From assembly GCA_902764345.1 (NCBI GenBank), contig CACWVT010000009.1, positions 1 to 46,302 on the forward strand: a stretch of 46,302 bases of DNA, given 5' to 3'. A model generated the notes under the pieces. The model was not told where the DNA came from. It saw only the letters and a list, made by a program, of their open reading frames with translations, and did no database searches. This document shows positions 25,508 to 46,049 of the stretch, piece after piece. The position numbers and the translations under genes were made by a program. This stretch comes from an uncultured Ruminobacter sp. GTDB taxonomy: Bacteria; Pseudomonadota; Gammaproteobacteria; Enterobacterales; Succinivibrionaceae. Every line of letters starts with the position of its first letter. The stretch's first letter is position 1.

Positions 25508-25789
25508 TTGAGATATTCTGACAACCGTATCATTAAAACAGGAGACCTTGTATGTCTCCGAGGCAGACAGCTTGGAGTTATAGGGTGTGTAATTGATAAT
25601 GATGATTACACGGATGAATTCCCTAAAAGCGATTATGCCTATCTTGAACACGGTATCATGCTGAGACTTTCCAACGGAAACGTACTCTATCTTGAGGAGT
25701 ACACCGAGGAACTGGTGCTGATTTCACGGGGCGTGGATGAGAAAAATCCGGCCTTCCCGTGGTCTGATGACGTGGATGGTCGGGAGTAA
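25508..25789 (+). CDS. Small acidic protein of unknown function
   Basis: 93 residues starting at a TTG (25508) with a good AGGAA 7 nt upstream. The N-terminal half, TGDLVCLRGRQLGVIGCVIDNDDYTDEFPKSDYAYLEHGIMLRLSNG, resembles a small SH3/KOW-like beta barrel by its turn pattern. No TM or signal segment. It lies between ygiQ and a lipoprotein gene on the same strand and could be part of a loose transcription unit. No family recognised. Confidence 0.55.
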   Translation: MRYSDNRIIKTGDLVCLRGRQLGVIGCVIDNDDYTDEFPKSDYAYLEHGIMLRLSNGNVLYLEEYTEELVLISRGVDEKNPAFPWSDDVDGRE

Positions 25790-31200: not shown

Positions 31201-31917
31201 TCAGTTTCCGGAACGGTTACATGACAGGGTGATGAAACCTGCGGTGTCTCCGAGTCTGAAGCGCTGATAGTAAACGGTGAACTCATCAATTACGGACAGC
31301 GGCAGATCGTTTCTGTTTACCGCGGCCGCGGTAATCGTTCCGTGTTCATCATCGCCTTCCACCGTCATTATCTCCACTTCCTTAAAGTCAACAAAACGTT
31401 TTATGAGCGGATATACGGCTTTGTACAGACTTTCCTTGGCAGAAAATATGAGTCTCAGCGAATCACCGGTAAAGAACGAAGTGCCGATGAAACGGTTGAG
31501 TTCGTCGAGAGTACTGATGTTGTCAGCAACCTGCATGGCGTCATTGTCAGTCATGCTGACGCACAGATCAAGACCTATGCTGTGCGTATCTCCGGACTTT
31601 GGGGACACGACGGCACAGGCTATGCCGCCGTCGTGACTTATTGAACCGATGAAGCCTTTCGGCCATGCGGGGGATTTGTCTTCATTTACCCTGACCGGTT
31701 CGGAATTTCCGAAAGCCTTCAGGCGGCTGTGGCTAGCCATCCTTCCGGCAATGAATTCTGCCTTTCTTTTGGAAACGGCATTGTGAAAATTGGCCGGAAA
31801 AATGGAGCCGTACTGCTCCGAAAGCTCTTCGGAAAGAGTGTCGGTATCAAACTCCAGTACTTCAATGACGTGAGAGTTGATGACTATTTCGGCTTTGGAT
31901 TTGATAAATTCGTTCAT
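31201..31917 (-). CDS. 4'-phosphopantetheinyl transferase (EntD/Sfp superfamily)
   Basis: Transfers the phosphopantetheine arm of CoA to carrier-protein serines. 238 residues. The EntD-type blocks are visible: KRKAEFIAGRMASHSRL (about 50-66), WPKGFIGSISHDGGIACAVV (85-104), the metal-binding IGLDLC (about 113-118; usually GIDIE/GVDIE) and FSAKESLYKAVYP (about 158-170; usual WxxKEAxxK), with the Glu and Lys in place. GGAG upstream of the ATG at 31917. Such enzymes usually serve siderophore NRPS or secondary-metabolite systems, yet no carrier-protein gene lies in the window. The neighbouring receptor and transporters point to a metallophore; this link is inferred. Confidence 0.88.
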   Translation of the reverse strand: MNEFIKSKAEIVINSHVIEVLEFDTDTLSEELSEQYGSIFPANFHNAVSKRKAEFIAGRMASHSRLKAFGNSEPVRVNEDKSPAWPKGFIGSISHDGGIACAVVSPKSGDTHSIGLDLCVSMTDNDAMQVADNISTLDELNRFIGTSFFTGDSLRLIFSAKESLYKAVYPLIKRFVDFKEVEIMTVEGDDEHGTITAAAVNRNDLPLSVIDEFTVYYQRFRLGDTAGFITLSCNRSGN

Positions 31918-32955: not shown

Positions 32956-34389
32956 TTATGTGTAAGACATGAGCATATTATGTTTTGACGGCATGACCAT
33001 AGATACTTCCTTTTCCAATATCGTTTTTAAAGCATCGGTCACATTATCAAGAATATCATCGCCGCCAATTAACGGATAATATGTAATAAAAAGTACATTA
33101 TCGATGGATAAAGAAAGAGTTGGCGCAATCTTGTTGTTAAGTTTTGCTCCGAACAGATCCAGAGGTTCGTAATTCAGGGCTCCGGTTGTTTTTATGAATG
33201 TGGCTCCCTTAAGACTGTTCGGATGTCTGATGAATTTGCGGTGCAGAATAAGTGATACGGTGAATGATACAGGGTCATCCTTTTTGCCTGCCATGTGTTT
33301 TCTGAGGGCAAACTCCAGAAACTTGTACATGGACACGTCAACTTTGTTGTTTCTGAAGCTTTCCACCTGTTTCAGAATGTCGGCTGCAATGTCAGCGAGC
33401 GGGAGACTGCCGTCTGCCACGACGGGAACGTATGCACAGTAGTTGCCGATGAACTGCTGTCTCTGTTTGGCCGACAGAATGTCAGACATCATTCTGAAAG
33501 ATATTTTTTTCTTTTCCGGATGATTGTGAACAGTGCTGTTTACGTAGTAAAAAGCTTTTACAAGCAGTGCCGTGATGATGCTGTTGGCATTTACGTTTTT
33601 GTTGCCGGCGTAATGGTTGATAATCGGATTTAAATCAAAATAGTGCATCTGAGGCTCGTGTTTTTCAGTTCTGAATTTTTCCCACTCAGCCTCGATTACC
33701 GGATACCTGACAGAAAATTCACCGTCATCGTTTAATTTTGTTCCCACAAGTCTGAAAATGTTTTTTATCTGTTGCCATCTGCTCAGTTTGATAAGCGGAT
33801 TTTCAGATCTGAAGGAATAGATTTCATCGCTTGACGGAGTAGAGGTCTGTCTTACACGATTAAGAACCTTTTCCATTGACTGAAGATTGTTTTCAAGGAG
33901 GGCATTGTAATACTCGGTAATCTGGTTTAACAGAAATTCACAGCTTCTGCCGTCACAGTAGGCGTGATTCAGTGTCTGTACGATGCAGAATTCTCCTGTA
34001 ACTGAGTCGTTGTCTTCCTTCTCATGTTCATCTGCTTCCTTTGTTTCATTTTCGTCTGTCACAAATACGGTGAAAAAGAGAGGGAAGAAATTGTATTCGC
34101 GGCTCAGATTAAAAATGTCCCGGGAAAATTCCTTAAGTCCTTCGTCCATGTTTTTACATCGAATGAGTTTTACCGGAGGTACGTTTCTGCTTTTTTCCTT
34201 CCATGCTCCTTCCCCGTTATCAAGTGGAATCAGTTCGTATCTGAATTTGTCCGCTTCGGAAAGGACCTTACTGACACTTATTGAAAAAAGACGCAGGTTC
34301 AGACTGCCTGTAAAGTGGCAGGCGATGGAGTTGGCTATGTTGCAGTGAGACAGACAGTTTTCGAGATATATGGTACCTGGTATGGACAT
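32956..34389 (-). CDS. Stand-alone condensation-fold acyltransferase
   Basis: 477 residues from the ATG at 34389 (AGGAG 9 nt upstream); a longer frame to 34539 has no ribosome site and a low-quality N-terminus. The motif NHAYCDGRS (about 141-149) fits the second-His-xxx-Asp-Gly part of the HHxxxDG active site of NRPS condensation, PapA and alcohol-acetyltransferase domains, with the first His replaced by Asn. Flanking features fit this fold: an early LSHCNIANSIACHFTG strand region, FRYELIPLD, and a late IGNYCAYVPVV segment. A Glu/Asp-rich loop (about 111-130) precedes the motif. No carrier or adenylation domain is attached. It is divergent from the TonB receptor, so it may acylate a metallophore or lipid. 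Confidence 0.7.
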   Translation of the reverse strand: MSIPGTIYLENCLSHCNIANSIACHFTGSLNLRLFSISVSKVLSEADKFRYELIPLDNGEGAWKEKSRNVPPVKLIRCKNMDEGLKEFSRDIFNLSREYNFFPLFFTVFVTDENETKEADEHEKEDNDSVTGEFCIVQTLNHAYCDGRSCEFLLNQITEYYNALLENNLQSMEKVLNRVRQTSTPSSDEIYSFRSENPLIKLSRWQQIKNIFRLVGTKLNDDGEFSVRYPVIEAEWEKFRTEKHEPQMHYFDLNPIINHYAGNKNVNANSIITALLVKAFYYVNSTVHNHPEKKKISFRMMSDILSAKQRQQFIGNYCAYVPVVADGSLPLADIAADILKQVESFRNNKVDVSMYKFLEFALRKHMAGKKDDPVSFTVSLILHRKFIRHPNSLKGATFIKTTGALNYEPLDLFGAKLNNKIAPTLSLSIDNVLFITYYPLIGGDDILDNVTDALKTILEKEVSMVMPSKHNMLMSYT

Positions 34390-34869
34390 CTGATTATTCT
34401 CCTGTTTTGTATAAGTTATGCAGGTTAATATTGCTGGGGATATGGGTATTCGTGCAGAGCTTCTTTTTGCTGCACTGCAGGCTCGGAACCTGCCAATACT
34501 TTTGGAAGGCGGACGTCGCCGGACTGAATCTGAAAACAAAACGGGGAAAACATAATGAGTGTCAGAGCATTGACCTGAGTATTATGCCCCTTATTCTGAA
34601 AAAACAAATGAGAATTATTGTCAGCTCCGTTCAGTAATTTTCTTAATGGACGGTATTCAGGTGTTCTTTCTGATAATTTTTGTTAGTTATGTCTAATAAG
34701 TGTTAACAAAGGCTAACATACATGATATCTTTGTCGGGCTTTTGGCAGGTATGTCCATAACCTGCGGATGAAAACATTAAATACTTATAACTAAAAATAC
34801 TTGATATTTATGAAGGAGCGGACCGTGCTTGCGGGGAAATAGGCATTGTCCGTGATGGAGAAGAATACT
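34390..34869 (+). promoter_or_regulatory. Divergent control region acyltransferase / TonB receptor
   Basis: 480 nt. The -10 candidate GATAAT (34672-34677) has only a weak upstream -35. It is followed immediately by a 42-nt repeat-rich element (34677-34718) shared with the exbB promoter. Further down are a GCAGGT/ACCTGC hairpin (34745-34765), a directly repeated AAATACTT (around 34780-34802), and an AAGGAG-GTG start (34813-34827) that closes at an in-frame TAG (34840) before the receptor ATG. Confidence 0.55.
34677..34718. promoter_or_regulatory. Shared 42-nt operator-like element, copy A
   Basis: Begins TTTTTGTTAG and ends CTAACA, with TTA/TAA cores about 10-11 bp apart. 32 of 42 positions match copy B at 41963-42004 without gaps. 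It overlaps or follows the predicted -10 of the TonB-receptor promoter, which fits a repressor site. Confidence 0.65.
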
Positions 34870-37140
34870 ATGTATGGAAACAGAAAGACCTGTAGGTTCA
34901 TGATGACGCTTCTGGCGTCATCGATTATGACGGCCGTTAATGCGTACGCTGCCGAAGAAGAATACGATTTTGAACTGGATACCATAAGCGTTACGGCAAA
35001 CAAGTACAGTCAGGATCTTGTGAGCCTGAGCGGTCAGGCCGAGGTCGCCGACGATAAGACTCTTGAGGAACACGAAGTAAGGGGAGTAACTGATTTAACA
35101 AAAATCAGTTCAGCACTGACACCTGCCGTCGGTTTTGGCAGTCGTCAGCTTACCAAGTATACCGTAAGAGGCATTAATTCAGGCAATATCTATAATTCCG
35201 GCGTTACTGTTTATGTTGACGGCGTGGCACAGCCTTTCTCTCAGATGAATCAGCAGTTTAATGATGTAAGTACCGTGGAAATTCTCAAGGGACCTCAGGG
35301 ATCTGTATACGGTTCTGGGGCTCAGCTCGGCATCATCAACATTACCTCGAAGAATCCGATGTTAGACGGAAACTATGCTGACGTGGAATCAGACTACTCA
35401 AAGCTGTACTGGAAGAACAGGGTGGCAGCCGGCGGTGCCCTTTACGAGGATAAGATTTATGGTAAGTTCGGTGTGTCCAATCAGAAAGATTACGGATGGA
35501 TTAAGGACATTGACGGTTCGAACTACAATACCGGAGAGTCATATGTCGTTAACGGCGCTCTTTATTTCAGCGGCGGTGAAAATTCACCGCTGAACGTTAC
35601 GGTTGGCGGTTCATATACTAAGGATAGAGGGCATCAGAGTAACGTGGCTCTCACTGAAAGCGAGTATCGCAATGAAAGGATAAGTGGTCACGGTATTATA
35701 CGTAATCCGGATTTTACCCGTTCATATCTTGCCGGAGCAATGTCTGCCGATCCCGGCGTGATTGAATACTTCGGATCCCAAGAGGCGGCTTATGAAGCTC
35801 TGTATAATTCAGGTGAAATCAGAGACATCATCAATCCTAAAGAAGAGAGAACTGCGTATACAGCATATGTGAAGCTGGATTATTACCGAGACAACGGAGA
35901 TTCAGTCAACAGCATCACCAGTCTTAACAGTTCAGATTCATGTGAACTCTACATGATGGGACAGGGAAGCTGCGGTAATAATGAAATCAAGACACGTCAG
36001 TTCACTCAGGAAATCCGTTACGTCTCCGAACTGGGACACGCCGGTGATGTTTATGATTCAGGTAAGGCTGTCATAGGTGTCAATGTTACAAATTCCACCA
36101 CTGATAACTACGTTCTTGCACAGGTTGACATTTCTGATAATGAAATGTATCAGGCTCTGACCGGAGCCACAGTGTTTCCGATTGGGCAGGTTGACGTAAG
36201 AGTTGATGACCTCAGCTTCTCGGCATTTACCGATTATGCCTATAACTTCGGAGTAGGTGCCTCCTCCATTTTTGACATTGACCTGGGACTTCGTTATGAA
36301 CATGCGAGATCCAAGGCAAATGGTAACTACATGTTCGGATATGATTTTGACCATCTGCAGAATGATTACGACATGCTCGATTACAAGGCGGCATTCGGCT
36401 ATACATTCGTAACCGGACACAGAGCGTATGTTCTTGCATCAAGCGGTTCAAAGGCTGGCGGCTTCAGTAAATTCCCTACATCTGCTCTTGACGAGCAGGG
36501 CTATGATCCTGAAAAGACCTACAATTATGAAGCTGGTTATCACATGTCTCTCGACAATGGTTTTGACGCCAATGCCGCATTGTTCTTCATGGATGTTCAT
36601 AACCGTCAGGCCTATACGGTTGTTGAAAACTCCTATATGACTCCGTTAAGAAACATCGGCAGAATGCATTCAAAGGGTGCTGAACTGACACTGGGCTACA
36701 GAGCTGAACGTGTGAGCACCGGAGTTTCAATGACCTATGCGGATTCCAGAAACGAAACATCGGGTTATACCAAACATCCTGGCAATGCTCCGAAGTTTGT
36801 GGCAGCAGGCTTAATTGACGTAACGGCTCTTAAGTTTGCGGATTTTGTGGCTCATGTCGGCGGTAACATGCGTTATCAGTCGAAGACTTATTTCGGCGAA
36901 GGTTATACTTCCGTTTATGAAAACAGCGGGCTGATTCAGGAATCTCAGGGCGGTTATACCGTGTTTGATCTCTATGCAAGCGCCGAGATTATGAAGAATC
37001 TCGAAATCAAGGCTTATGTGGAAAACGTGGCTGATAAGAAGTATGCCGCATCTATTGATAACGGCAGTAACTACGGAGTACGTTTCTACTCAATGGCTGC
37101 TCCTCGTAACGTTGGTGTTAAGCTCAAGTATAGTTTCTAA
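34870..37140 (+). CDS. TonB-dependent outer-membrane receptor
   Basis: 756 residues from the ATG at 34870 (GGAGAAG 9 nt upstream). An ATG at 34855 is the alternative. Signal peptide MYGNRKTCRFMMTLLASSIM...NAYA-AEEE; TonB box DTISVTA (37-43). The plug domain (about 50-165) includes VRGINSGNIYNSGVTVYVDGV and VEILKGPQGSVYGSGAQLGIINI. A 22-strand barrel follows, ending in the outer-membrane signal VGVKLKYSF. A cysteine pair (SCELYMMGQGSCG) lies in an extracellular loop. Substrate is probably a ferric or other metal chelate, given the ABC pair and PPTase around it; sequence alone does not say which. Codon use is well adapted, indicating high expression. A terminator follows. Confidence 0.94.
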   Translation: MYGNRKTCRFMMTLLASSIMTAVNAYAAEEEYDFELDTISVTANKYSQDLVSLSGQAEVADDKTLEEHEVRGVTDLTKISSALTPAVGFGSRQLTKYTVRGINSGNIYNSGVTVYVDGVAQPFSQMNQQFNDVSTVEILKGPQGSVYGSGAQLGIINITSKNPMLDGNYADVESDYSKLYWKNRVAAGGALYEDKIYGKFGVSNQKDYGWIKDIDGSNYNTGESYVVNGALYFSGGENSPLNVTVGGSYTKDRGHQSNVALTESEYRNERISGHGIIRNPDFTRSYLAGAMSADPGVIEYFGSQEAAYEALYNSGEIRDIINPKEERTAYTAYVKLDYYRDNGDSVNSITSLNSSDSCELYMMGQGSCGNNEIKTRQFTQEIRYVSELGHAGDVYDSGKAVIGVNVTNSTTDNYVLAQVDISDNEMYQALTGATVFPIGQVDVRVDDLSFSAFTDYAYNFGVGASSIFDIDLGLRYEHARSKANGNYMFGYDFDHLQNDYDMLDYKAAFGYTFVTGHRAYVLASSGSKAGGFSKFPTSALDEQGYDPEKTYNYEAGYHMSLDNGFDANAALFFMDVHNRQAYTVVENSYMTPLRNIGRMHSKGAELTLGYRAERVSTGVSMTYADSRNETSGYTKHPGNAPKFVAAGLIDVTALKFADFVAHVGGNMRYQSKTYFGEGYTSVYENSGLIQESQGGYTVFDLYASAEIMKNLEIKAYVENVADKKYAASIDNGSNYGVRFYSMAAPRNVGVKLKYSF

Positions 37141-37153
37141 CGTTACAGCTTTT

Positions 37154-37191
37154 GCCCGTTACCGTACCTCTCGATGTAACGGGCTTTTTTT
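37154..37191 (+). terminator. Intrinsic terminator between receptor and ABC genes
   Basis: GCCCGTTAC (37154-37162) pairs with GTAACGGGC (37176-37184), followed by seven T residues. The ABC genes only 50 nt downstream show no clear promoter of their own, so this probably reduces rather than blocks transcription. Confidence 0.9.
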
Positions 37192-37242
37192 ATTGTCAGA
37201 TTCCGTCATGTGGTCGGAATCATTTCAGGGAAGGTAGTCAGA

Positions 37243-39075
37243 TTGAAATCATCAGGTAAAAAGGGAATTTCAAGATTACTGGAAATAAGTGGTGAAAAGA
37301 AGAGGATTCTCATAGTTTCCGTGTTTCTTGCCGCCGTATCAACAATCATTCAGATAATTCCTTACATAGCTTCATATAAAATAATCTGCCTGTATATCCA
37401 TTCATTTCAGAATTCGGTACCGGTGGACACCGATGCGGTTTTTTCGTGGGGACTTACTGCCGTGGTCAGCGTGTTTGTTTCCATGCTTTTTAACGGCGGC
37501 AGCTTTGTTCTCAGCCATTTCGCTGCTTTCAGAATCATATTTAATCTGCGACTGCGTCTCGCAAGGCATCTTGCCACGCTTCCTCTGGGGTACTTTACCA
37601 GGGTAAGTACGGGAGAGATTCACAAAAGCATTCATGATAATGTGGATCTGATTGAACTTTTCATATCTCATAAGATTCCGGATCTGGTGATGACGCTGTC
37701 GGGAGCCGTGGTGGTATTCGGACTTTACGTTTATGCAGACTGGCGTTTGGGACTCATCTGCATTCTTGTTTATGTCATTTCTCTTCTGATTCAGTTCCGT
37801 ATCTACGGTGATGACGGAGTAAGGGAGGAAATCAGGGGGTATTTCAGGGCATTGGAAGACATTAATGCCACATCAATGGAATTCGCCCGCGGCATTCCTG
37901 TGCTGAAAATGTTCAGTATGAGTGCCCGTTCGTTTGCTTCCCTAAAGAAGAGCGTCATGGCCTACAGGAACTTTGCCCTTAGATTTGCGAGACGGGGAAG
38001 CACTGATTTTATAATCTTTACCATTCTTGTAAATTTCTTCATTTTCTTTATTTATCCGGTGGTGATTTTTATCAATTCGTCAAATCCGGATGACCCGGGA
38101 ATCGTGCTTACGGCACTTTTCTTTACCGTGCTTTCAAATGCGATTCTGCCGTCGCTGATGAACATAATGAACATATCCAACGTAATAATGACCATTAACG
38201 AAGGCGTTGAACGCATAGATGCGATTTTTGCGGCAAAGCCGCTTCCCGTGCCGGCAATTCCGGAAAAACCGCAGAATTATACGGTTGAGTTTGATAACGT
38301 GTTCTTTTCGTACCATGATGATTTCACGGACAATGTTCCGGGGGAAAAGAATACGGAAAGGCATCACTCCGTCGTGAACGGTGTCAGCTTCAGGGTGGAG
38401 CAGGGGAAGAGTCTTGCCGTTATAGGTCGTAGCGGTTCGGGAAAAAGCAGCATCCTGTCTCTTATTGCAAGATTCTATGATGCAGATTCCGGAAGCGTGA
38501 GAATAGGAGGTACGGACGTCAGAAACATGTCCGAAAGCTGCCTGATGGACAGCCTAAGCATTGTGTTGCAGAAGACCTTCATGTTTGAGGGAACCATAAG
38601 GGAGAACATCGTGGCCGGCAAAAGCGGAGCTACCGACGAGGAGGTTCTTAACGCCGCACGTCTGGCTCGGTGTGATGACATTATTGCCAAATACGGTATG
38701 GATTATTATCTCGGGGGAGGCGGCAATACCCTTTCCGGAGGCGAGAAACAGCGCATAAACATAGCACGGGCGATACTTAAGAATGCACCGATTCTTCTTC
38801 TTGATGAGGTAAGTTCGGCTCTTGATGCCGAAAATGAACTGCTTCTTAATCAGGCCCTCACCGAGCTGAAGAAGAACAAAACCATAATCATGGTGGCACA
38901 CAAGCTCAACAGTGTAATTGATGCCGACGAGATCATCATGATTGACGACGGCAGAATACTGGCACGAGGAACTCATGAAAGTCTGCTTCGTGATTCCGAG
39001 GCTTACCGTAATTTATGGGATATGTACGTATCGGCTGATAAATGGCGGTTTAATGCCGGGGAGAGAGAACAATGA
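37243..39075 (+). CDS. ABC half-transporter, YbtP/IrtA-like (TMD-NBD fusion)
   Basis: 610 residues from a TTG at 37243 with GGGAAGG upstream; an in-frame GTG at 37210 lacks a ribosome site. Six-helix type IV (exporter-fold) membrane domain (about 20-330). The NBD has Walker A GRSGSGKSS (about 397-405), signature LSGGEKQRINIARAI, Walker B ILLLDEVSSALD and switch His in MVAHKLNSV. The layout, the 4-nt overlap with a second half-transporter, and the location after a TonB receptor match the YbtP-YbtQ and IrtA-IrtB siderophore importers, which are exporter-shaped but import. No SIP or ferric-reductase domain is fused. An export function cannot be ruled out. Confidence 0.88.
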   Translation: MKSSGKKGISRLLEISGEKKRILIVSVFLAAVSTIIQIIPYIASYKIICLYIHSFQNSVPVDTDAVFSWGLTAVVSVFVSMLFNGGSFVLSHFAAFRIIFNLRLRLARHLATLPLGYFTRVSTGEIHKSIHDNVDLIELFISHKIPDLVMTLSGAVVVFGLYVYADWRLGLICILVYVISLLIQFRIYGDDGVREEIRGYFRALEDINATSMEFARGIPVLKMFSMSARSFASLKKSVMAYRNFALRFARRGSTDFIIFTILVNFFIFFIYPVVIFINSSNPDDPGIVLTALFFTVLSNAILPSLMNIMNISNVIMTINEGVERIDAIFAAKPLPVPAIPEKPQNYTVEFDNVFFSYHDDFTDNVPGEKNTERHHSVVNGVSFRVEQGKSLAVIGRSGSGKSSILSLIARFYDADSGSVRIGGTDVRNMSESCLMDSLSIVLQKTFMFEGTIRENIVAGKSGATDEEVLNAARLARCDDIIAKYGMDYYLGGGGNTLSGGEKQRINIARAILKNAPILLLDEVSSALDAENELLLNQALTELKKNKTIIMVAHKLNSVIDADEIIMIDDGRILARGTHESLLRDSEAYRNLWDMYVSADKWRFNAGEREQ

Positions 39076-40793
39076 TTCAGTCCATAAGGAATTTAACCGG
39101 AAACAGAACCGGTAAGTTTTTCAGATCGGTACTGGCCACCTGCCTGTGTGATCTGGCAAATTTCGGAGGAATAATTTTCATTGTATGGCTGCTGTATCTG
39201 CTGCTGAATCCGTATCTTGGCGGAGAGCGGGCACAGACACTTCACCTTGTACTTATCTGCTGCGGATGCGTTGTGTACATGGTGGTGTGCTTCTATGCTT
39301 CAATTCCGGCATATAACGCCAATTTTGTGTCAACCTACAATAATTCCACTCGCGGAAGACTTAAGCTTGCCGAGCACATCAGAAAGCTTTCACTGGGATT
39401 TCTTTCAAATCTCAATCCGGCCAGGGTAAGTCACAGCATGATGAAGGATTTCTCCAATCTGGAGAATGCTAATTCTCACATTATCCCGCAGCTTTTCTCC
39501 TCCCTGATTATTACGGTGACGGTTTTTATCGGACTGCTGTTTTACAATGCACCTCTTGCCATAAGCTTCTTCTGCTGCATTCCCGTGGCTTTGGCCATAC
39601 TGTGCATTGTGCGTGTTATGGGAGTGAGACTCAGTAAAAATCAGATGGCAGCTTCCGTTGAGGCATCATCAAGACTGACTGAATACATTACCGGCATAAC
39701 AACAATCAAAACCAATAACATGAGCGGATCAAGATTTGAACGGCTCGAGCAGAGTCTCACCAGGCTGCGCAGTGAAAGCATCAGACTTGAGGTTACACTG
39801 ATGCCGTTTGCCCTTACGACGATGTCATGCGTGGGGGCCGGTATTGGCATTATGGTTATGTTTGGGCAGTATAAGCTCATTCATCAGGAAATATCGGTAA
39901 TGGAATTCCTGATGCTGATGATTGTTGCTTCAAGGAGCATTGCACCGTTCATTGCCTTCAGCCTTAATTTCCTGATGCTGCAGTACTTCTCTGAATCCGG
40001 CAGAAACATCGGTAGGCTGATGAGTGAGCGTCCGCTTCCGGGAACGGCTGCGGAACTTCCTGACGGCAATGATCTTGTGCTGAGAAACGTCAGCTTTTCC
40101 TATGAACCTGGAAAAAAGATTCTTGATGACGTAAATCTTGAAATAAAGAACGGAAGCGTTGTTGCGGTTGTAGGACCGAGCGGTAGCGGCAAGTCAACTC
40201 TCGTAAAGCTCCTGGCAAGATTTTATGACCCGGATTCGGGGAGCGTTCTGATGGGAAACATTGTAGAAGGCAGACTTACAGACATCTCAACCATTGATCC
40301 TGAAACGCTTATGCACAGGTATGCCATGGTATTTCAGGAGTCTTACCTGTTCAGGGGAACCGTTACGGATAATGTAGTTCTGGGGAAAAAGGATGCTTCA
40401 GCTGATGATGTCAGAACCGTGCTGAAAAAGGCCATGGTTGATTTTGCGGGGCCGGATGACACTGTGGCTGAGGAAGGTCGTAATTTCAGTGGCGGTGAGA
40501 GACAGAGAATCTGTATTGCCCGCTGCATGCTGAAAGATGCACCAATTGTCTTTCTTGACGAAATCACCTCAAGTCTTGACGTCTACAACGAATTTGCGGT
40601 GCAGAAGGCGGTGGATGAACTCACCAGGGGGAAAACCGTCGTAATGATAGCCCACAGACTGAAAAACATCATGCACAGTGACATGATTGTTGTAATGGAT
40701 AAAGGCAGAATTGTCGATCGCGGAACTCATGATGAGCTGATATCCAGAGACGGTCTTTACCGCAAGCTGTGGCATCAGGGAGGTAATGACTGA
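39072..40793 (+). CDS. ABC half-transporter, YbtQ/IrtB-like (TMD-NBD fusion)
   Basis: 573 residues. The ATG (39072) overlaps the preceding stop (ATGA), so the two are translationally coupled and likely heterodimerise. TMD about 15-310; the NBD has Walker A GPSGSGKST (about 367-375), signature FSGGERQRICIARCM, Walker B IVFLDEITSSLD and IAHRL. All catalytic residues of both ABC subunits are present, so neither ATP site looks degenerate. Together they would move the chelate delivered by the TonB receptor across the inner membrane, by analogy with yersiniabactin and mycobactin systems. A direction of transport is inferred. Confidence 0.88.
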   Translation: MIQSIRNLTGNRTGKFFRSVLATCLCDLANFGGIIFIVWLLYLLLNPYLGGERAQTLHLVLICCGCVVYMVVCFYASIPAYNANFVSTYNNSTRGRLKLAEHIRKLSLGFLSNLNPARVSHSMMKDFSNLENANSHIIPQLFSSLIITVTVFIGLLFYNAPLAISFFCCIPVALAILCIVRVMGVRLSKNQMAASVEASSRLTEYITGITTIKTNNMSGSRFERLEQSLTRLRSESIRLEVTLMPFALTTMSCVGAGIGIMVMFGQYKLIHQEISVMEFLMLMIVASRSIAPFIAFSLNFLMLQYFSESGRNIGRLMSERPLPGTAAELPDGNDLVLRNVSFSYEPGKKILDDVNLEIKNGSVVAVVGPSGSGKSTLVKLLARFYDPDSGSVLMGNIVEGRLTDISTIDPETLMHRYAMVFQESYLFRGTVTDNVVLGKKDASADDVRTVLKKAMVDFAGPDDTVAEEGRNFSGGERQRICIARCMLKDAPIVFLDEITSSLDVYNEFAVQKAVDELTRGKTVVMIAHRLKNIMHSDMIVVMDKGRIVDRGTHDELISRDGLYRKLWHQGGND

Positions 40794-41222
40794 CGGGTGC
40801 CGGACGGTGCTGCAGAAGCCGAATCCGTATTCCGGTGCGGTTTGCTGCCTGCATGTTATTTTCGTTACGGCAGGCACGCTTCCATGACGGTTCAGTTCCG
40901 GACACGTTTGTAAAAAGTGTCCGGGACTGTCGCAGTCTTTCGGTTTAGGAACGCCTAAAGTCCACCTTACATGCGGAGTACGGATACAGGCTCCGTACTC
41001 CGCAACATTTTAAAAGTCCCCGAACCCACCCTCATCCTGTCGTCGGTAACCGGTAGTAAACATACATAATACTCTTTATAGATGTTACATTACTGGGCAT
41101 ACAACGTAAGTGGAGACCTCTAATCTCCTGCATGCGCCCTGCATTGCAATTACTATTGATTTATGCGATTCATTCTCAGTCGCAAGAGATGCCACCCGCC
41201 CGTCAGGATTACCTTCATTGAT
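40794..41222. other. Unexplained intergenic block with hairpins
   Basis: 429 nt. It contains two strong hairpins: CCGGACAC/GTGTCCGG (40898-40924) and an 11-bp GCGGAGTACGG/CCGTACTCCGC (40973-41003); the latter has a weak T-rich tail and may end the ABC operon. From 41221 down to about 41095 the minus strand stays open in frame with the DIP1984 gene for roughly 41 codons past its stop, with codon use unlike the neighbours. This could be a degenerate mobile-element end or an unknown conserved element; I cannot identify it. Confidence 0.4.
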
Positions 41223-41675
41223 TTAAATTAATTCGGTCAGCCAGTTCAGTTCCTGAATTTTTTCATCAGTTTCCCTGAATTTTTTTGACCACGAATCAAG
41301 CTCTTTCTGCAGTTCGGCAACATTTACGGTACTGCATACTTTTATTTCGGTTTTCGAATATCTTGATACCTTATCGCTGGAAGCGTCCAGAAAATCCCTC
41401 ATTATACCGATTCGTTCCTTAAGAATGTCACGTCGCGCAATCAGATCCGTGACCGTCAGGTCACCTGATTTGGTCGCATTATTGGTTTTGTTAATTCTCG
41501 CCACGAGTTCCTCCAGACGGATGAGACAGCCGTCCAGCTCCTTAAGAAGCTCTTCCGGGTTTTCCGCAGGCTGTTCTCCTTCCTGAACCTTTGCGTTATT
41601 GTTGAGTCTGTGTCTGAGACTTATGATTCTTCTCTGCAAATCGGCTCTTTCTGACAGTGCAGTTGCAAGCTTCAT
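41223..41675 (-). CDS. DIP1984/septicolysin-like family protein
   Basis: 150 residues, two helical hairpins with a coiled-coil pattern. MKLATALSERADLQRRIISLRHRL, NPEELLKELDGCLIRLEELVARINKTN, LTVTDLIARRDILKERI and the ending EKIQELNWLTELI are typical of the DIP1984 family. Its function is unknown; the 'septicolysin' label in databases is not evidence of lysis. GGAGG sits upstream of the ATG at 41675. It interrupts, on the opposite strand, the receptor-ABC and exbBD-tonB halves of the transport locus, and has a perfect palindrome (41746-41762) in its upstream region. Confidence 0.82.
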   Translation of the reverse strand: MKLATALSERADLQRRIISLRHRLNNNAKVQEGEQPAENPEELLKELDGCLIRLEELVARINKTNNATKSGDLTVTDLIARRDILKERIGIMRDFLDASSDKVSRYSKTEIKVCSTVNVAELQKELDSWSKKFRETDEKIQELNWLTELI

Positions 41676-41745
41676 CTTTGATGTCCTCCGGAATGGTCCT
41701 GTTTAAATTCTGAATTCTCACCGGAATATTATGCAATGGATGACG

Positions 41746-41762
41746 TGTCTATGATATAGACA
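41746..41762. promoter_or_regulatory. Perfect 17-bp palindrome upstream of the DIP1984 gene
   Basis: TGTCTAT-GAT-ATAGACA: 7-bp arms with a 3-nt centre, 71 nt upstream of the DIP1984 ATG. Operator-like geometry for a dimeric helix-turn-helix regulator; the regulator is unknown. Confidence 0.55.
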
Positions 41763-41962
41763 TGCTTAACAAATCGGAAAGTTGCCGATTTTCGGCTCAT
41801 TATATGACCGGCGGGTACTGATTGTGCGTACAGGAACCATCCTGTTGTGGTCATGATCCGTACGGCGGCTGCGGCATTCGTAAAGTGTAAACCTTATATC
41901 TGATAAATTTTATCACAATAAAAAAATCTGATTTATCTCCCGTTTTTTTTGTATACAATGGC

Positions 41963-42004
41963 TTTTTGTTAGTTTTGGGTAACATACGTTAATAATTGCT
42001 AACA
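41963..42004. promoter_or_regulatory. Shared 42-nt operator-like element, copy B
   Basis: Begins TTTTTGTTAG and ends CTAACA, the same outer blocks and 26-nt inner spacing as copy A (34677-34718), with internal GTTAA conserved. It lies 4-6 nt after the candidate exbB -10. Confidence 0.65.
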
Positions 42005-42119: not shown

Positions 42120-42542
42120 ATGGATAACATAAAGGATCTTGTTGATATCTCCATATTCGTCATATTGGGTTTTATGGGGTTTCTTGCCCTTTGGTTTTCA
42201 ATTGAAAGATTTATTTTTCTGAGCCGTTTTAAGCCGCAGAACTACGCTGACGGATCTCAGATGGAGACGGCACTTACCAAAAACATGACCACGATATTCA
42301 TTATCTATTCAAATGCGCCTTATGTGGGGCTTCTCGGTACCGTGCTCGGTATTATGATTACCTTCTATGACATGGGGCAGTCCGGAGGCCTGAACGCAAA
42401 AGACATAATGGTGGGCATGTCCCTTGCTCTCAAAGCTACTGCTTTAGGTCTGGTTGTGGCCATTCCTGCCCTGATTGCCTATAACGGTCTTAACAGAAAA
42501 ATAAGCGTTATCGCCGCTTCCGCTGCCGGAGGAAAGCGTTAA
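42120..42542 (+). CDS. exbB: ExbB proton-channel subunit of the TonB motor
   Basis: 140 residues with three transmembrane helices (about 8-28, 62-84, 101-124). The MotA/TolQ/ExbB signature is clear: [21 protein letters not shown] (about 64-84) and [21 protein letters not shown] (101-121). It lacks the long N-terminus of E. coli ExbB (244) and matches the short ExbB type seen in Haemophilus. With ExbD it conducts protons to energise TonB in the inner membrane. AGGTGGAAAG precedes the ATG; the stop overlaps the exbD ATG (TAATG). Confidence 0.93.
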
Positions 42543-42937
42543 TGAAACTTATTCCTTCAAGAGCTCCGCTGAACATAGTTCCGTTCATTGATATTATGCT
42601 GGTGCTGCTGTGTATGGTGCTGAGCGTTTCCACCTTCATTGCCCAGGGAGAGATAAAGGTTAATCTTCCTGAAGCCTCAACTCAGGATAAACTGACTGAT
42701 GTTGAATCGGAATTGATACTTCTGGAAATCGGGGAAAACAATGAGATTTATTTCGACGGAAAAAAGGCTGATTCCGAGTCCGTTGCGGAAAAGCTGACAT
42801 CTTTGGATCCGGACGTGCATTTGGAACTTCGTATAGATGAAAAAGCCGATTTTGGACTTTTTATAGTAGTGCTTGATAAGTTAAGAGAGCTTAATCATGG
42901 AAATTTCAGCATTGCCACCAAGAAAACAAAGTTATAA
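42542..42937 (+). CDS. exbD: ExbD subunit of the TonB motor
   Basis: 131 residues: a short cytoplasmic N-terminus, one TM helix (about 12-33) with the essential Asp in NIVPFIDIMLVLLCM (D17), and a periplasmic domain with DVHLELRIDEKADFGLFIVVLDKL. It overlaps exbB by 1 nt and tonB by 41 nt. Confidence 0.93.
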   Translation: MKLIPSRAPLNIVPFIDIMLVLLCMVLSVSTFIAQGEIKVNLPEASTQDKLTDVESELILLEIGENNEIYFDGKKADSESVAEKLTSLDPDVHLELRIDEKADFGLFIVVLDKLRELNHGNFSIATKKTKL

Positions 42938-43682
42938 CCGGGTTTCCTTCATTCTGGCTCTGAGCATCTATTGTCCGTTGGTGTATGGCTGCATTATGTG
43001 GGCGGGGCACGTCAGTTCTCAGTTTTCTTTTAAATCTGATGAAGAAATCGTGAAAATCATGCTGAAGGTTCTGCCTCCGCCACCGGAACCGGTTCCCGTC
43101 ATGGAGGTGCCGCCGGTTCCTGAGCCTGCAGAACCACAGGTTCTGCAAAAACCTGAGGCTCCCATTGTTCAGCAGAAGCCGGAAGAGAAACCAAAACCTA
43201 AACCAAAACAAAAACAAAAACAAAAACCGAAACAGATGGTGAAGAAACCAAAGCCCGTAAAGAAGACCCCTGAACCGAAGTCCTCTCCTGAGGTCATAAC
43301 GGATCGGCAGCAGGTAAACCCGGCAGCGGCTCCGGCCGTTCCCGTTTCCGGAAAATCTGTTCCGGCCGCATCTTCCGGGCCCGTTACCATGGTTTACGGC
43401 AAAACGCAAAATGCGCTTATGAGCCGGATTGTCCAAAGCCTGCTGAAGCATCGTTACTATCCTCAGCAGGCAAGACGCCGCGGGATACAGGGTGTGGTGC
43501 TGGTTGCTTTCGTAATCAGGAAGGACGGTACCGTTGACAGCATTGCGGTCGTAAAGAGTTCAACGGGAGCGGAGCTTCTGAAACAAGCCGCCGTAACCAC
43601 GGTAAAGAATGCCTCAAGGGATTTCCCAAACACCGGAAAGGACATAAAGGTGGTGGTTCCCATTGAGTTTAAATTAAGTTAA
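42897..43682 (+). CDS. tonB: TonB energy transducer
   Basis: 261 residues. The N-terminal TM anchor is at about 15-38 (RVSFILALSIYCPLVYGCIMWAG). A Pro-rich spanning region (about 58-135) has PPPPEP, PVPEPAEP, then a Lys-Pro/Lys-Gln run. The C-terminal TonB domain (about 172-261) has SLLKHRYYPQQARRRGIQGVVLVAFVIRKDGTVD and ends VVVPIEFKLS. It links ExbB/ExbD to the TonB box of outer-membrane receptors. The start overlaps the last 41 nt of exbD; no alternative start keeps the TM anchor. Probably dedicated to the receptor at 34870-37140. Confidence 0.92.
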   Translation: MEISALPPRKQSYNRVSFILALSIYCPLVYGCIMWAGHVSSQFSFKSDEEIVKIMLKVLPPPPEPVPVMEVPPVPEPAEPQVLQKPEAPIVQQKPEEKPKPKPKQKQKQKPKQMVKKPKPVKKTPEPKSSPEVITDRQQVNPAAAPAVPVSGKSVPAASSGPVTMVYGKTQNALMSRIVQSLLKHRYYPQQARRRGIQGVVLVAFVIRKDGTVDSIAVVKSSTGAELLKQAAVTTVKNASRDFPNTGKDIKVVVPIEFKLS

Positions 43683-43718: not shown

Positions 43719-46049
43719 ATGTGGATTGTTGACAAAATCCTGAAGTACAGAATTCTGAGTATTCTGTTTGCCGTCATTCTGACCTGTGTCACGGGACAGT
43801 TCATCGGTGAATTAAAACAGGATAATTCATATGAAAGTTTCTTTGCAGAAGACGATCCTGCCTATACGGAACTGCAGGAATATTATGAAACCTTCGGTAA
43901 TGACGATTTTGTGTTTCTTCTGGTGGACAGTCACGGAAAGAAGGATGCCTCATTTTTAAAGAGACTTGATGCACTTGTTCACAGACTTGACAGGGAAGTG
44001 AACTTTGTTGACAGGGTAACCTGGATAGGTAACGCTGAATCGGTGACTTCGGAAAACGGCTCCGATACAGTGAGCATAGCCACTCTGTTTGACGGATTTG
44101 ACGGTTCCGAGGAGGAAATCGGCAGGGTGATTGACCGTGCTGCCAATGACAGAGCGTATGCGGACAGGTTTGTAAGTGCTGACGGTACGGTTTTCGGCAT
44201 AGTCATTAACTTTATTAACTACCCTGATGACAGCAGGGGGAACGTTAATGAATTCCGTAATCAGGCTCCGCCGGCCATATATAAGATTCTTAATGATTTT
44301 AAGGATTTGGACGTCAGGGTGGTAGGCAGTCCCGTCATCAGTTATTTCAACGACAGGGACATACAGGAGGAAGGCCAGATCTGGGTGATTTCAGGTCTTA
44401 TCGGCATGCTGATAATGCTGATAATCACCACAAGAAGCATTATTGGTACCGTGGTGCCGCTGCTTACCGTATTTCTGTCCATCGTGCTCACCATGGGACT
44501 TTATCAGATATTCGGATTTACCCTGAACATGCTTGCCATGATGATTCCGATTTTAATTCTCTGCGTGGGCATAGGTGACTCGGTTCATCTGATAGCCGAA
44601 TTCAGAAGTCTTTACGTAAACGGCGTGAGTAAGACTGACGCCTTAAGAAAAACGCTTAAGCTGACGACATTGCCCATGTGTCTGACCACTCTTACCACCT
44701 CACTCGGTTTTGCGTCATTTATTTTTACGGATCTTCTTCCTCTGCGGGAACTGGGGCTTCAGGCGGCCATAGGTGCAGTGATTGCTTTGGTGATGACGTT
44801 CATTTTTGCGCTTCCTGTTCTGAGTTTCAGCAGGGTAAAGCCGCTGAAGGCCTTTGTCGTAGCGGGATCCGGGGCAAAGGAAAGACACTTTGACGTGTTT
44901 GACCATATGGTAAACTTCTTTAACGGCCTGGTGTTGAAATACCCTAAAGCCATAATTCTGGGGACTGTCGTTGCCGTAGGCATCGCCGCCTGGGGCATGA
45001 CCGGACTGAAGATCGAGACAGCCTTCATTCAGGATTTACCAAAGGATGATCCGCTCCGTCAGGATTTTGACTTCGTGGATTCACGCATGGGCGGATCCAT
45101 GTCCATGGAAATTCTGGTGGAGACCGGAAAGGAAAACGGAGTAAAGGATCTTAATTTCATAAACGGACTGGACAGACTGCAGGGTTTTCTTGAATCCCAT
45201 CCTCTGGTGCTTCAGACATCGAGTTTTGTGGATCAGCTGAAGCAGATGAACAGGGCGGTTCATGAGAATAATGACGAATTCTATGCCGTACCGAAAAAGA
45301 AGGAAAGCGTCAGCGAACTTCTGCTCCTTTATGAATCAGGTGGCGGTAAGGAATTTGACAGACTGGTGAGCTTTGCTTATGACACGGCACACGTGCAGGT
45401 AAGAACGGTTTCCCTGAGTACAGCTGACGTGAGAAAGCTGGAAAATGATGTATATGAATTCGTCAGAACAAATGTTCCGTGGTTAAATATTAAATTTACA
45501 GGGGCTTCATGTCTGCTTACGAACTTGGCTGACTACCTTTCCGAAAGTGAACTGTACAGTTTCATCTATGCTTTCGTGACAATCCTTATCGTGATGACAA
45601 TTGTCTTCAGATCGTTAAAGATCGGCCTTTTGGCAATGATTCCGAACGTTGTTCCAGTCGTACTGACATTGGGACTCGTAAGCTTTGCCGGAGCCAGGGT
45701 AAACATGGTGCTGGTTATTCTGGCACCGATAATTCTCGGGGTATGCATTGATGACACCATTCATTTCATCACCCGTTACCGTTATTTCTTCAGGGAATGC
45801 GGAGATTACGGAATTGCCTTCAAGCGTACATCCCTGAGTGTCGGCAGGGTGCTTATTTTCACCACCATGATTTCAGGCGTTTGTCTCTTAAGCTTTATGA
45901 ACAGTAAGTTTGCGGGACCGTTCACTTTTGCCTGGAGTTCAGTGACTGCCTTTATCATCGCATTAGTCTGCGATTTGGCGGTTACTCCGGCCCTCATTAT
46001 GACATTTAAGCCGTTCGGACCGGAAAGAACCGGAGGCAGAACCGCATAA
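43719..46049 (+). CDS. RND-superfamily (MMPL-type) transporter
   Basis: 776 residues in two related halves. Each half has one TM helix, a large periplasmic domain and five more helices: TM1 about 10-28, periplasmic about 35-215, TM2-6 about 222-375; TM7 about 405-427, periplasmic about 430-600, TM8-12 about 607-765. ILCVGIGDSVHLIAEF and, in the second half, ILGVCIDDTIHFITRYRY are the internal repeat motifs with the acidic residues of proton relay. It belongs to the 'predicted exporters of the RND superfamily' group rather than the AcrB group; no membrane-fusion partner is present. It follows tonB by 36 nt, so it is likely part of the exbBD-tonB operon. Substrate unknown; lipid-linked or metallophore export is a guess. 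Confidence 0.88.
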   Translation: MWIVDKILKYRILSILFAVILTCVTGQFIGELKQDNSYESFFAEDDPAYTELQEYYETFGNDDFVFLLVDSHGKKDASFLKRLDALVHRLDREVNFVDRVTWIGNAESVTSENGSDTVSIATLFDGFDGSEEEIGRVIDRAANDRAYADRFVSADGTVFGIVINFINYPDDSRGNVNEFRNQAPPAIYKILNDFKDLDVRVVGSPVISYFNDRDIQEEGQIWVISGLIGMLIMLIITTRSIIGTVVPLLTVFLSIVLTMGLYQIFGFTLNMLAMMIPILILCVGIGDSVHLIAEFRSLYVNGVSKTDALRKTLKLTTLPMCLTTLTTSLGFASFIFTDLLPLRELGLQAAIGAVIALVMTFIFALPVLSFSRVKPLKAFVVAGSGAKERHFDVFDHMVNFFNGLVLKYPKAIILGTVVAVGIAAWGMTGLKIETAFIQDLPKDDPLRQDFDFVDSRMGGSMSMEILVETGKENGVKDLNFINGLDRLQGFLESHPLVLQTSSFVDQLKQMNRAVHENNDEFYAVPKKKESVSELLLLYESGGGKEFDRLVSFAYDTAHVQVRTVSLSTADVRKLENDVYEFVRTNVPWLNIKFTGASCLLTNLADYLSESELYSFIYAFVTILIVMTIVFRSLKIGLLAMIPNVVPVVLTLGLVSFAGARVNMVLVILAPIILGVCIDDTIHFITRYRYFFRECGDYGIAFKRTSLSVGRVLIFTTMISGVCLLSFMNSKFAGPFTFAWSSVTAFIIALVCDLAVTPALIMTFKPFGPERTGGRTA

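Follow-up and report, generated by a model that had tools for sequence, protein, structure and literature searches.

A tandem palindrome resembling DtxR-family operators precedes a TonB receptor gene and exbB in an uncultured Ruminobacter sp.

Fur is generally regarded as the regulator of iron genes in Gammaproteobacteria. In high-GC Gram-positive bacteria, siderophore, ferrous iron and related genes are controlled from DtxR/IdeR operators, and the DtxR consensus (TTAGGTTAGCCTAACCTAA) contains the pair of half-sites TTAG-N6-CTAA twice, 5 bp apart (both according to PMC7762939). The present analysis concerns an element repeated in the 46,302-nt contig CACWVT010000009.1 of an uncultured Ruminobacter sp. 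of the family Succinivibrionaceae (hereafter the window, i.e. the whole stretch analyzed; one entire contig of the 2.49-Mb genome GCA_902764345.1). The element lies in front of a TonB-dependent receptor gene and again in front of exbB, and sequence comparison makes it very probable that it is an operator for a metal-dependent repressor of the DtxR family (IdeR/MntR-like), most likely one that senses iron. Metal operators of the DtxR family are an already known kind of site. A further representative is found upstream of Escherichia coli mntH, where the palindrome ATAGC-N4-GCTAT, which we take to be the site of MntR (a member of the same protein family), has the same TAGC-N4-GCTA core as the element.

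The first-pass annotation had reported a 42-nt repeat at 34677-34718 and 41963-42004. The repeat is genuine, with its coordinates and match count confirmed: the two copies are equal without gaps at 32 of 42 positions, contain the outer blocks and internal GTTAA previously noted, and have half-sites starting 11, 9 and 11 nt apart, near one helical turn, as had been proposed for the recurring cores. In 1000 dinucleotide shuffles of both intergenic regions, the best 42-nt match was 28. The actual unit is 38 bp long and consists of two 18-bp palindromes, TGTTAG-N6-CTAACA, whose starts are 20 bp apart and which contain the TTAG-N6-CTAA half-sites present in DtxR-family operators:

34681-34718, + strand: putative operator 1 (palindromes 34681-34698 and 34701-34718), before the TonB receptor gene
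41967-42004, + strand: putative operator 2 (palindromes 41967-41984 and 41987-42004), before exbB

The element is thus similar to DtxR/IdeR operators in its TTAG-N6-CTAA pairs, but there a 19-bp box takes two interdigitating dimers offset by 5 bp, whereas in Ruminobacter the palindromes are separate and 20 bp apart. The E. coli mntH operator differs in having A instead of T before the core, in being a single palindrome and in serving manganese rather than siderophore genes.

Loose single palindromes (≤2 mismatches) were not enriched, either in the window (24, compared to 21.6 expected) or in the complete genome (59, compared to 86 for the reversed control). Since these counts are at chance level, only near-exact or tandem copies are informative, and scans for loose single palindromes were discarded as evidence. 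The tandem was searched for in this genome and in its family with ≤3 mismatches, using the reversed pattern as control. In the Ruminobacter genome itself, five places were identified (the control matched one forward and no reverse site): the two in the window, two on contig C38, and a weak one with 3 mismatches (C26:20405). At C38:21555 both palindromes are exact and precede a siderophore-type non-ribosomal peptide synthetase (NRPS) gene with carrier and condensation domains, while the tandem at C38:12768 precedes a LolA-like gene; the same contig contains a gene similar to dihydroxybenzoate (DHB)-AMP-ligase genes (546 bits, cut-off 724). On contig C46, three palindromes are located ahead of a small open reading frame (ORF) in the feoA position (assigned by position alone), which is followed by feoB. 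The idea that one regulon ties the two operons of the window together is supported by this search, which places tandem or clustered sites before the TonB receptor, exbB, NRPS, LolA-like and feoB genes. Single palindromes were found at C11:2861, before a porin gene, and at C8:11489, before the gene of a protein that has the DNA-binding domain of Fur only (half-Fur, see below); overlapping palindromes precede an amylase-like gene on C53, and these, like the weak tandem on C26, were left unassigned.

The conservation of the element was examined in four Ruminobacter genomes (the source genome, R. amylophilus, G024 and G025) and in 56 genomes of Succinivibrionaceae. When the receptor promoters of all four Ruminobacter genomes are compared, the longest uninterrupted invariant blocks (11, 9 and 8 columns) are those of the element. 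The cross-genome comparison proposed by the first-pass annotation supports its interpretation, as the receptor-promoter element is retained in all four genomes and the database matches (see below) are biased toward feoB. That annotation had put forward no particular regulator; the present evidence indicates the DtxR family. For the exbB promoter, the expected conservation was observed only in part: the copy is intact in two of the four genomes (the source genome and G024), R. amylophilus retains one palindrome, and no palindrome was detected in the approximately 300 nt upstream of exbB in G025. In the family, the tandem is present in 17 of 56 genomes, compared to none (0/56) for the reversed control. 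When gaps of 0–28 nt were allowed, exactly 4 nt separated the palindromes in 15 of 24 placements, which are partly related (in this test the reversed control matched 2/56 genomes). The element is not the 19-bp IdeR/DtxR box: the pairs in the window and these 15 placements are spaced at 20 bp (with the gaps allowed, pairs offset by 5 bp were not detectable). A half-Fur–dtxR gene pair follows the tandem in G013 and G016. Two further arrangements were noted in the family: three consecutive palindromes in 20-bp steps in a Succinivibrio genome (L076:1535-1590; G032 contig C15:25535-25590), and a tandem between two P-type metal ATPase genes in Anaerobiospirillum-group genomes (L048:5093-5128, L050:5754-5789, L151:2571).

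A wide scan of genome_contigs with the exact tandem pattern identified at least 113 stretches (the count is a lower bound), compared to approximately 1–10 expected by chance at 40–65% A+T. According to their record titles, the matches belong to Bacillota, Spirochaetota, Gastranaerophilales, Fibrobacter, Actinomycetota, a small number of archaea and other groups. A feoB start lies within 1 kb downstream in 47 of the 113 matches listed (random positions in the same loci: mean 7.2, largest 15). For DtxR-family genes, 18 matches have one at a distance of up to 1.5 kb (random positions: mean 4.3, largest 9); one or the other gene is nearby in 56. As a separate observation, the tandem lies just before an enolase gene in two phyla (L052:5699-5734 in G026 and L163:4963 in Treponema) and, in a further genome, before a gene for PPDK (L099:1453), which suggests that the regulon may extend to glycolytic enzymes in certain lineages.

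A candidate regulator is widely available, since the DtxR-family domain PF02742 was found in 54 of the 56 family genomes. In the four Ruminobacter genomes as well as in G021, G027, G028 and G055, two PF02742 domains are present in one open frame; the fused proteins that were read have 266–317 aa. The protein of the source genome (L204:3512-4330, contig C28; 272 aa) contains PF01325 twice and PF02742 twice, and its matches in the PDB are to chains of MntR and DtxR. In both of its halves, the Cys, Glu and His that form the primary metal site of DtxR are retained, together with an SR(P/A)SVSRA helix; Asn occupies the Met10 column and the ancillary ligands are lost in part. No C-terminal SH3/FeoA-like Pfam domain was present among the 25 of 30 matches listed, and no length is left for one; the Ruminobacter regulator thus differs from DtxR/IdeR in being a fusion of two units and in having no recognizable SH3 domain. 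In a 65-row tree, the eight N-terminal halves form one group (92/81) and six of the eight C-terminal halves another (95/75), with the C-terminal halves of G021 and G055 falling apart (long branches were flagged). The fused proteins probably arose by one old duplication. Among the best 40 BLAST rows, the C-terminal half of the source protein shows 40–47% identity to single-unit DtxRs of Succinivibrionaceae and 42–45% to four DtxRs from Bacillota and Spirochaetota. The fusion of the repressor was ruled out as an explanation for the tandem, because genomes with single-unit DtxR (e.g. G005, G006 and G032) share the same tandem. A second double-DtxR-like protein, without the Cys-Glu-His ligands, is encoded in G023 (L218:15091-16017, on the receptor contig) and G025 (L211:2967-3902); a family profile search did not find it in G000 or G024. 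It is possibly a metal-blind partner or antagonist.

From the motif and the genes behind it, we infer that the DtxR-family protein binds the tandem cooperatively and represses transcription in response to a metal. The DtxR consensus and the half-site geometry of mntH suggest that one palindrome is the site of one dimer and the tandem that of two dimers on one face. Each 18-bp palindrome would accordingly take one DtxR dimer or its fused equivalent, in Ruminobacter a single protein with two DtxR units, and the 20-bp step (about two helical turns) would set the two dimers on one DNA face, where they would probably bind cooperatively. When Fe(II) is plentiful, the repressor with its metal bound would cover the promoter and block RNA polymerase, silencing together (i) the TonB receptor operon, (ii) exbB-tonB, (iii) siderophore synthesis and (iv) feoB; when iron falls, the repressor would leave the operator.

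The placement of the element relative to promoters is compatible with such a role. Both copies had been described as lying at or just after the -10 box, which is only partly right. In the case of the receptor gene, a weak match to the promoter consensus lies partly within the element (TTAACA at 34703, TATCTT ending at 34731; the scan found 2 such sites, compared to 1.3 expected), and TGnTATCTT just after the element is invariant in all four Ruminobacter genomes:

34723-34731, + strand: probable extended -10 (TGATATCTT), consensus match

Because of this overlap and the invariant TGnTATCTT, the element more likely covers the -35 box and spacer. Upstream of exbB, the promoter scan gave no consensus promoter; TATACAAT sits directly upstream of the element there. 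In front of the NRPS gene, TTGACA-N16-TATTTT, identified by eye in the source genome and R. amylophilus, terminates immediately ahead of the tandem. The placement therefore differs from gene to gene, which fits the earlier interpretation less well, but any of these positions would block initiation.

Several observations weigh against an iron-sensing DtxR-family repressor acting at the element. The tandem was not detected in 39 of the 56 family genomes at ≤3 mismatches, though nearly all of them have DtxR, and the scan of the source genome gave no match near its own dtxR gene. Neither feoB nor dtxR is nearby in 57 of the 113 matches listed; neighbors sampled from these (one gene at each of ten) comprised three transporter components, enolase, PPDK, a DUF1559 protein and four without a family. 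The remaining points concern the metal. The top NCBIfam match of the source protein is MntR (153.8 bits, cut-off 153, with two stretches summed). Examples of DtxR/IdeR without the SH3 domain are described in PMC7762939 as not Fe(II)-responsive in vivo. PgMntR of P. gingivalis, which also has Cys in the site, responds to manganese, and a FeoB-type protein carries manganese under its control (both according to PMC4805248).

It is nevertheless unlikely that the same operator and DtxR-family regulator answer to manganese, in the manner of MntR. The NCBIfam result, the core shared with the mntH palindrome, the P. gingivalis system and the enolase and PPDK genes behind the motif in other species would fit this signal. 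On the other hand, the presence of genes for a TonB receptor, ExbB, an NRPS and a DHB-ligase-like enzyme speaks for ferric siderophores, the metal site contains Cys as in DtxR rather than Glu as in MntR, and E. coli MntR is no more than 33% identical to the C-terminal half of the source protein. Iron is favored over manganese because siderophore-type genes lie behind the operator.

The set of genes in question (TonB receptor, exbB, catechol synthesis, feoB) is similar to that of the gammaproteobacterial Fur regulon, but the operator is another one, and no full-length Fur was found with PF01475 in the four Ruminobacter genomes. The sole PF01475 match in these genomes spans profile positions 2-64 or 2-65 of 121. 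The corresponding protein, half-Fur, is a Fur DNA-binding domain without the metal/dimerization domain, and its C-terminal part is conserved and unrelated to Fur:

source genome L045:4298-4765 (C8:11797-12264), L056:4652-5098, L060:4793-5239 and others: half-Fur

Binding of the element by a Fur-family protein, in this case half-Fur, is very unlikely. In G013 and G016 its gene closely follows the tandem, and in the source genome it follows a single palindrome. However, in line with the earlier statement that the element is not a classical Fur box, it contains no match to TGATAAT-N-ATTATCA at ≤2 mismatches, whereas separate boxes with 2 mismatches to TGATAATNATTATCA (the Fur consensus used for scoring) are present upstream of both copies:

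34609-34623, + strand: Fur-like box TGAGAATTATTGTCA, 57 nt upstream of operator 1
41901-41915, + strand: Fur-like box TGATAAATTTTATCA, 51 nt upstream of operator 2

Moreover, the regulator gene enriched near the 113 stretches is that of the DtxR family (Fur genes were not searched for there), and half-Fur, although adjoining two tandems, was set aside as the binder. The size and spacing of the palindromes are of the order known for CRP/FNR- or MarR-type sites, and a CRP-family gene adjoins one tandem (G033); this single adjacency compares with 18/113 for DtxR (no search of the set was aimed at CRP or MarR genes), so that a regulator of these types is highly improbable and the CRP-family gene was also set aside. 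Chance similarity or repeat remnants, with which the lack of enrichment of loose single palindromes would agree, have a negligible probability in view of the 32/42 match reached by 0/1000 shuffles, the 17/56 genomes compared to 0/56 for the control, the gene bias at the 113 stretches, and the retention of the core while the flanks diverge.

The Fur-like boxes are themselves more frequent than expected. The window contains three, compared to 0.33 expected (three were reached by 1/100 shuffles), the third, at 25594, bearing no relation to the elements; the complete genome contains 50, compared to 6 for the reversed pattern, although this control leaves dinucleotide content unpreserved. Among 24 element sites, such a box (≤2 mismatches, ≤150 nt upstream) accompanies 3/7 in the source genome (receptor, exbB and NRPS), 2/2 in G024, 1/3 in R. 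amylophilus (105 nt away) and 0/12 others. Of six loci of the source genome with one-mismatch boxes, four have them inside ORFs and two between genes: one before an ABC-3 metal transporter operon, the other before a small ORF followed by a gene for a chorismate-binding enzyme.

Half-Fur is present in 48 of the 56 family genomes (read from the table); in 39 of these its gene lies no more than 2 kb from dtxR, and it is upstream of dtxR on the same strand in all 29 distinct genomes whose loci were read. All eight genomes with fused DtxR belong to the nine in which half-Fur and dtxR are apart. A partnership of half-Fur and DtxR is plausible. We tentatively consider a split switch in Ruminobacter and its relatives, in which the double DtxR might sense Fe(II) and bind the tandem, while half-Fur might bind the Fur-like box upstream of siderophore promoters and take the iron signal from DtxR. 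If true, DtxR would have replaced Fur as the iron sensor in a gammaproteobacterial lineage, with the DNA reader of Fur retained. The conserved half-Fur–dtxR gene pair lends itself directly to testing whether control has passed from one major family of iron repressors to the other.

Ruminobacter would thus combine (i) no intact Fur found, (ii) a DtxR-type operator common to gut Bacillota, Spirochaetota and Melainabacteria, and (iii) a regulator that is a fused pair. For many uncultured gut bacteria, the motif would make it possible to predict iron regulons. Among the matches listed in open-licence papers, where absence is weak evidence, no report was found of the tandem motif across gut phyla, of a fused DtxR or of iron control in Ruminobacter, nor of the tandem serving a siderophore/TonB regulon in Gammaproteobacteria without intact Fur.

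In the window, operator 1 is followed by the TonB receptor gene and two ABC transporter genes, and operator 2 by exbB, a small ORF in the exbD position, tonB and an RND-type transporter gene:

34846-37140, + strand: TonB-dependent receptor gene with a siderophore as the probable ligand (plug and barrel domains of Pfam; score below the TIGR01783 cut-off; start codon provisional)
37210-39075, + strand: ABC transporter gene, fused membrane and ATPase domains
39072-40793, + strand: ABC transporter gene, fused membrane and ATPase domains
42120-42542, + strand: exbB (MotA/TolQ/ExbB family)
42542-42937, + strand: small ORF in the exbD position (position alone)
42897-43682, + strand: tonB (TIGR01352 above its cut-off)
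43719-46049, + strand: RND/MMPL-type transporter gene, in synteny in the three other Ruminobacter genomes

On the opposite strand, a phosphopantetheinyl transferase gene resembling entD (below the model cut-off) is located at 31201-31917. A 527-aa ORF without a Pfam or NCBIfam match lies at 32956-34539, also on the strand opposite to the receptor gene; its counterpart (61% identical) is kept beside the receptor gene in G025 (L057:3927-5399).

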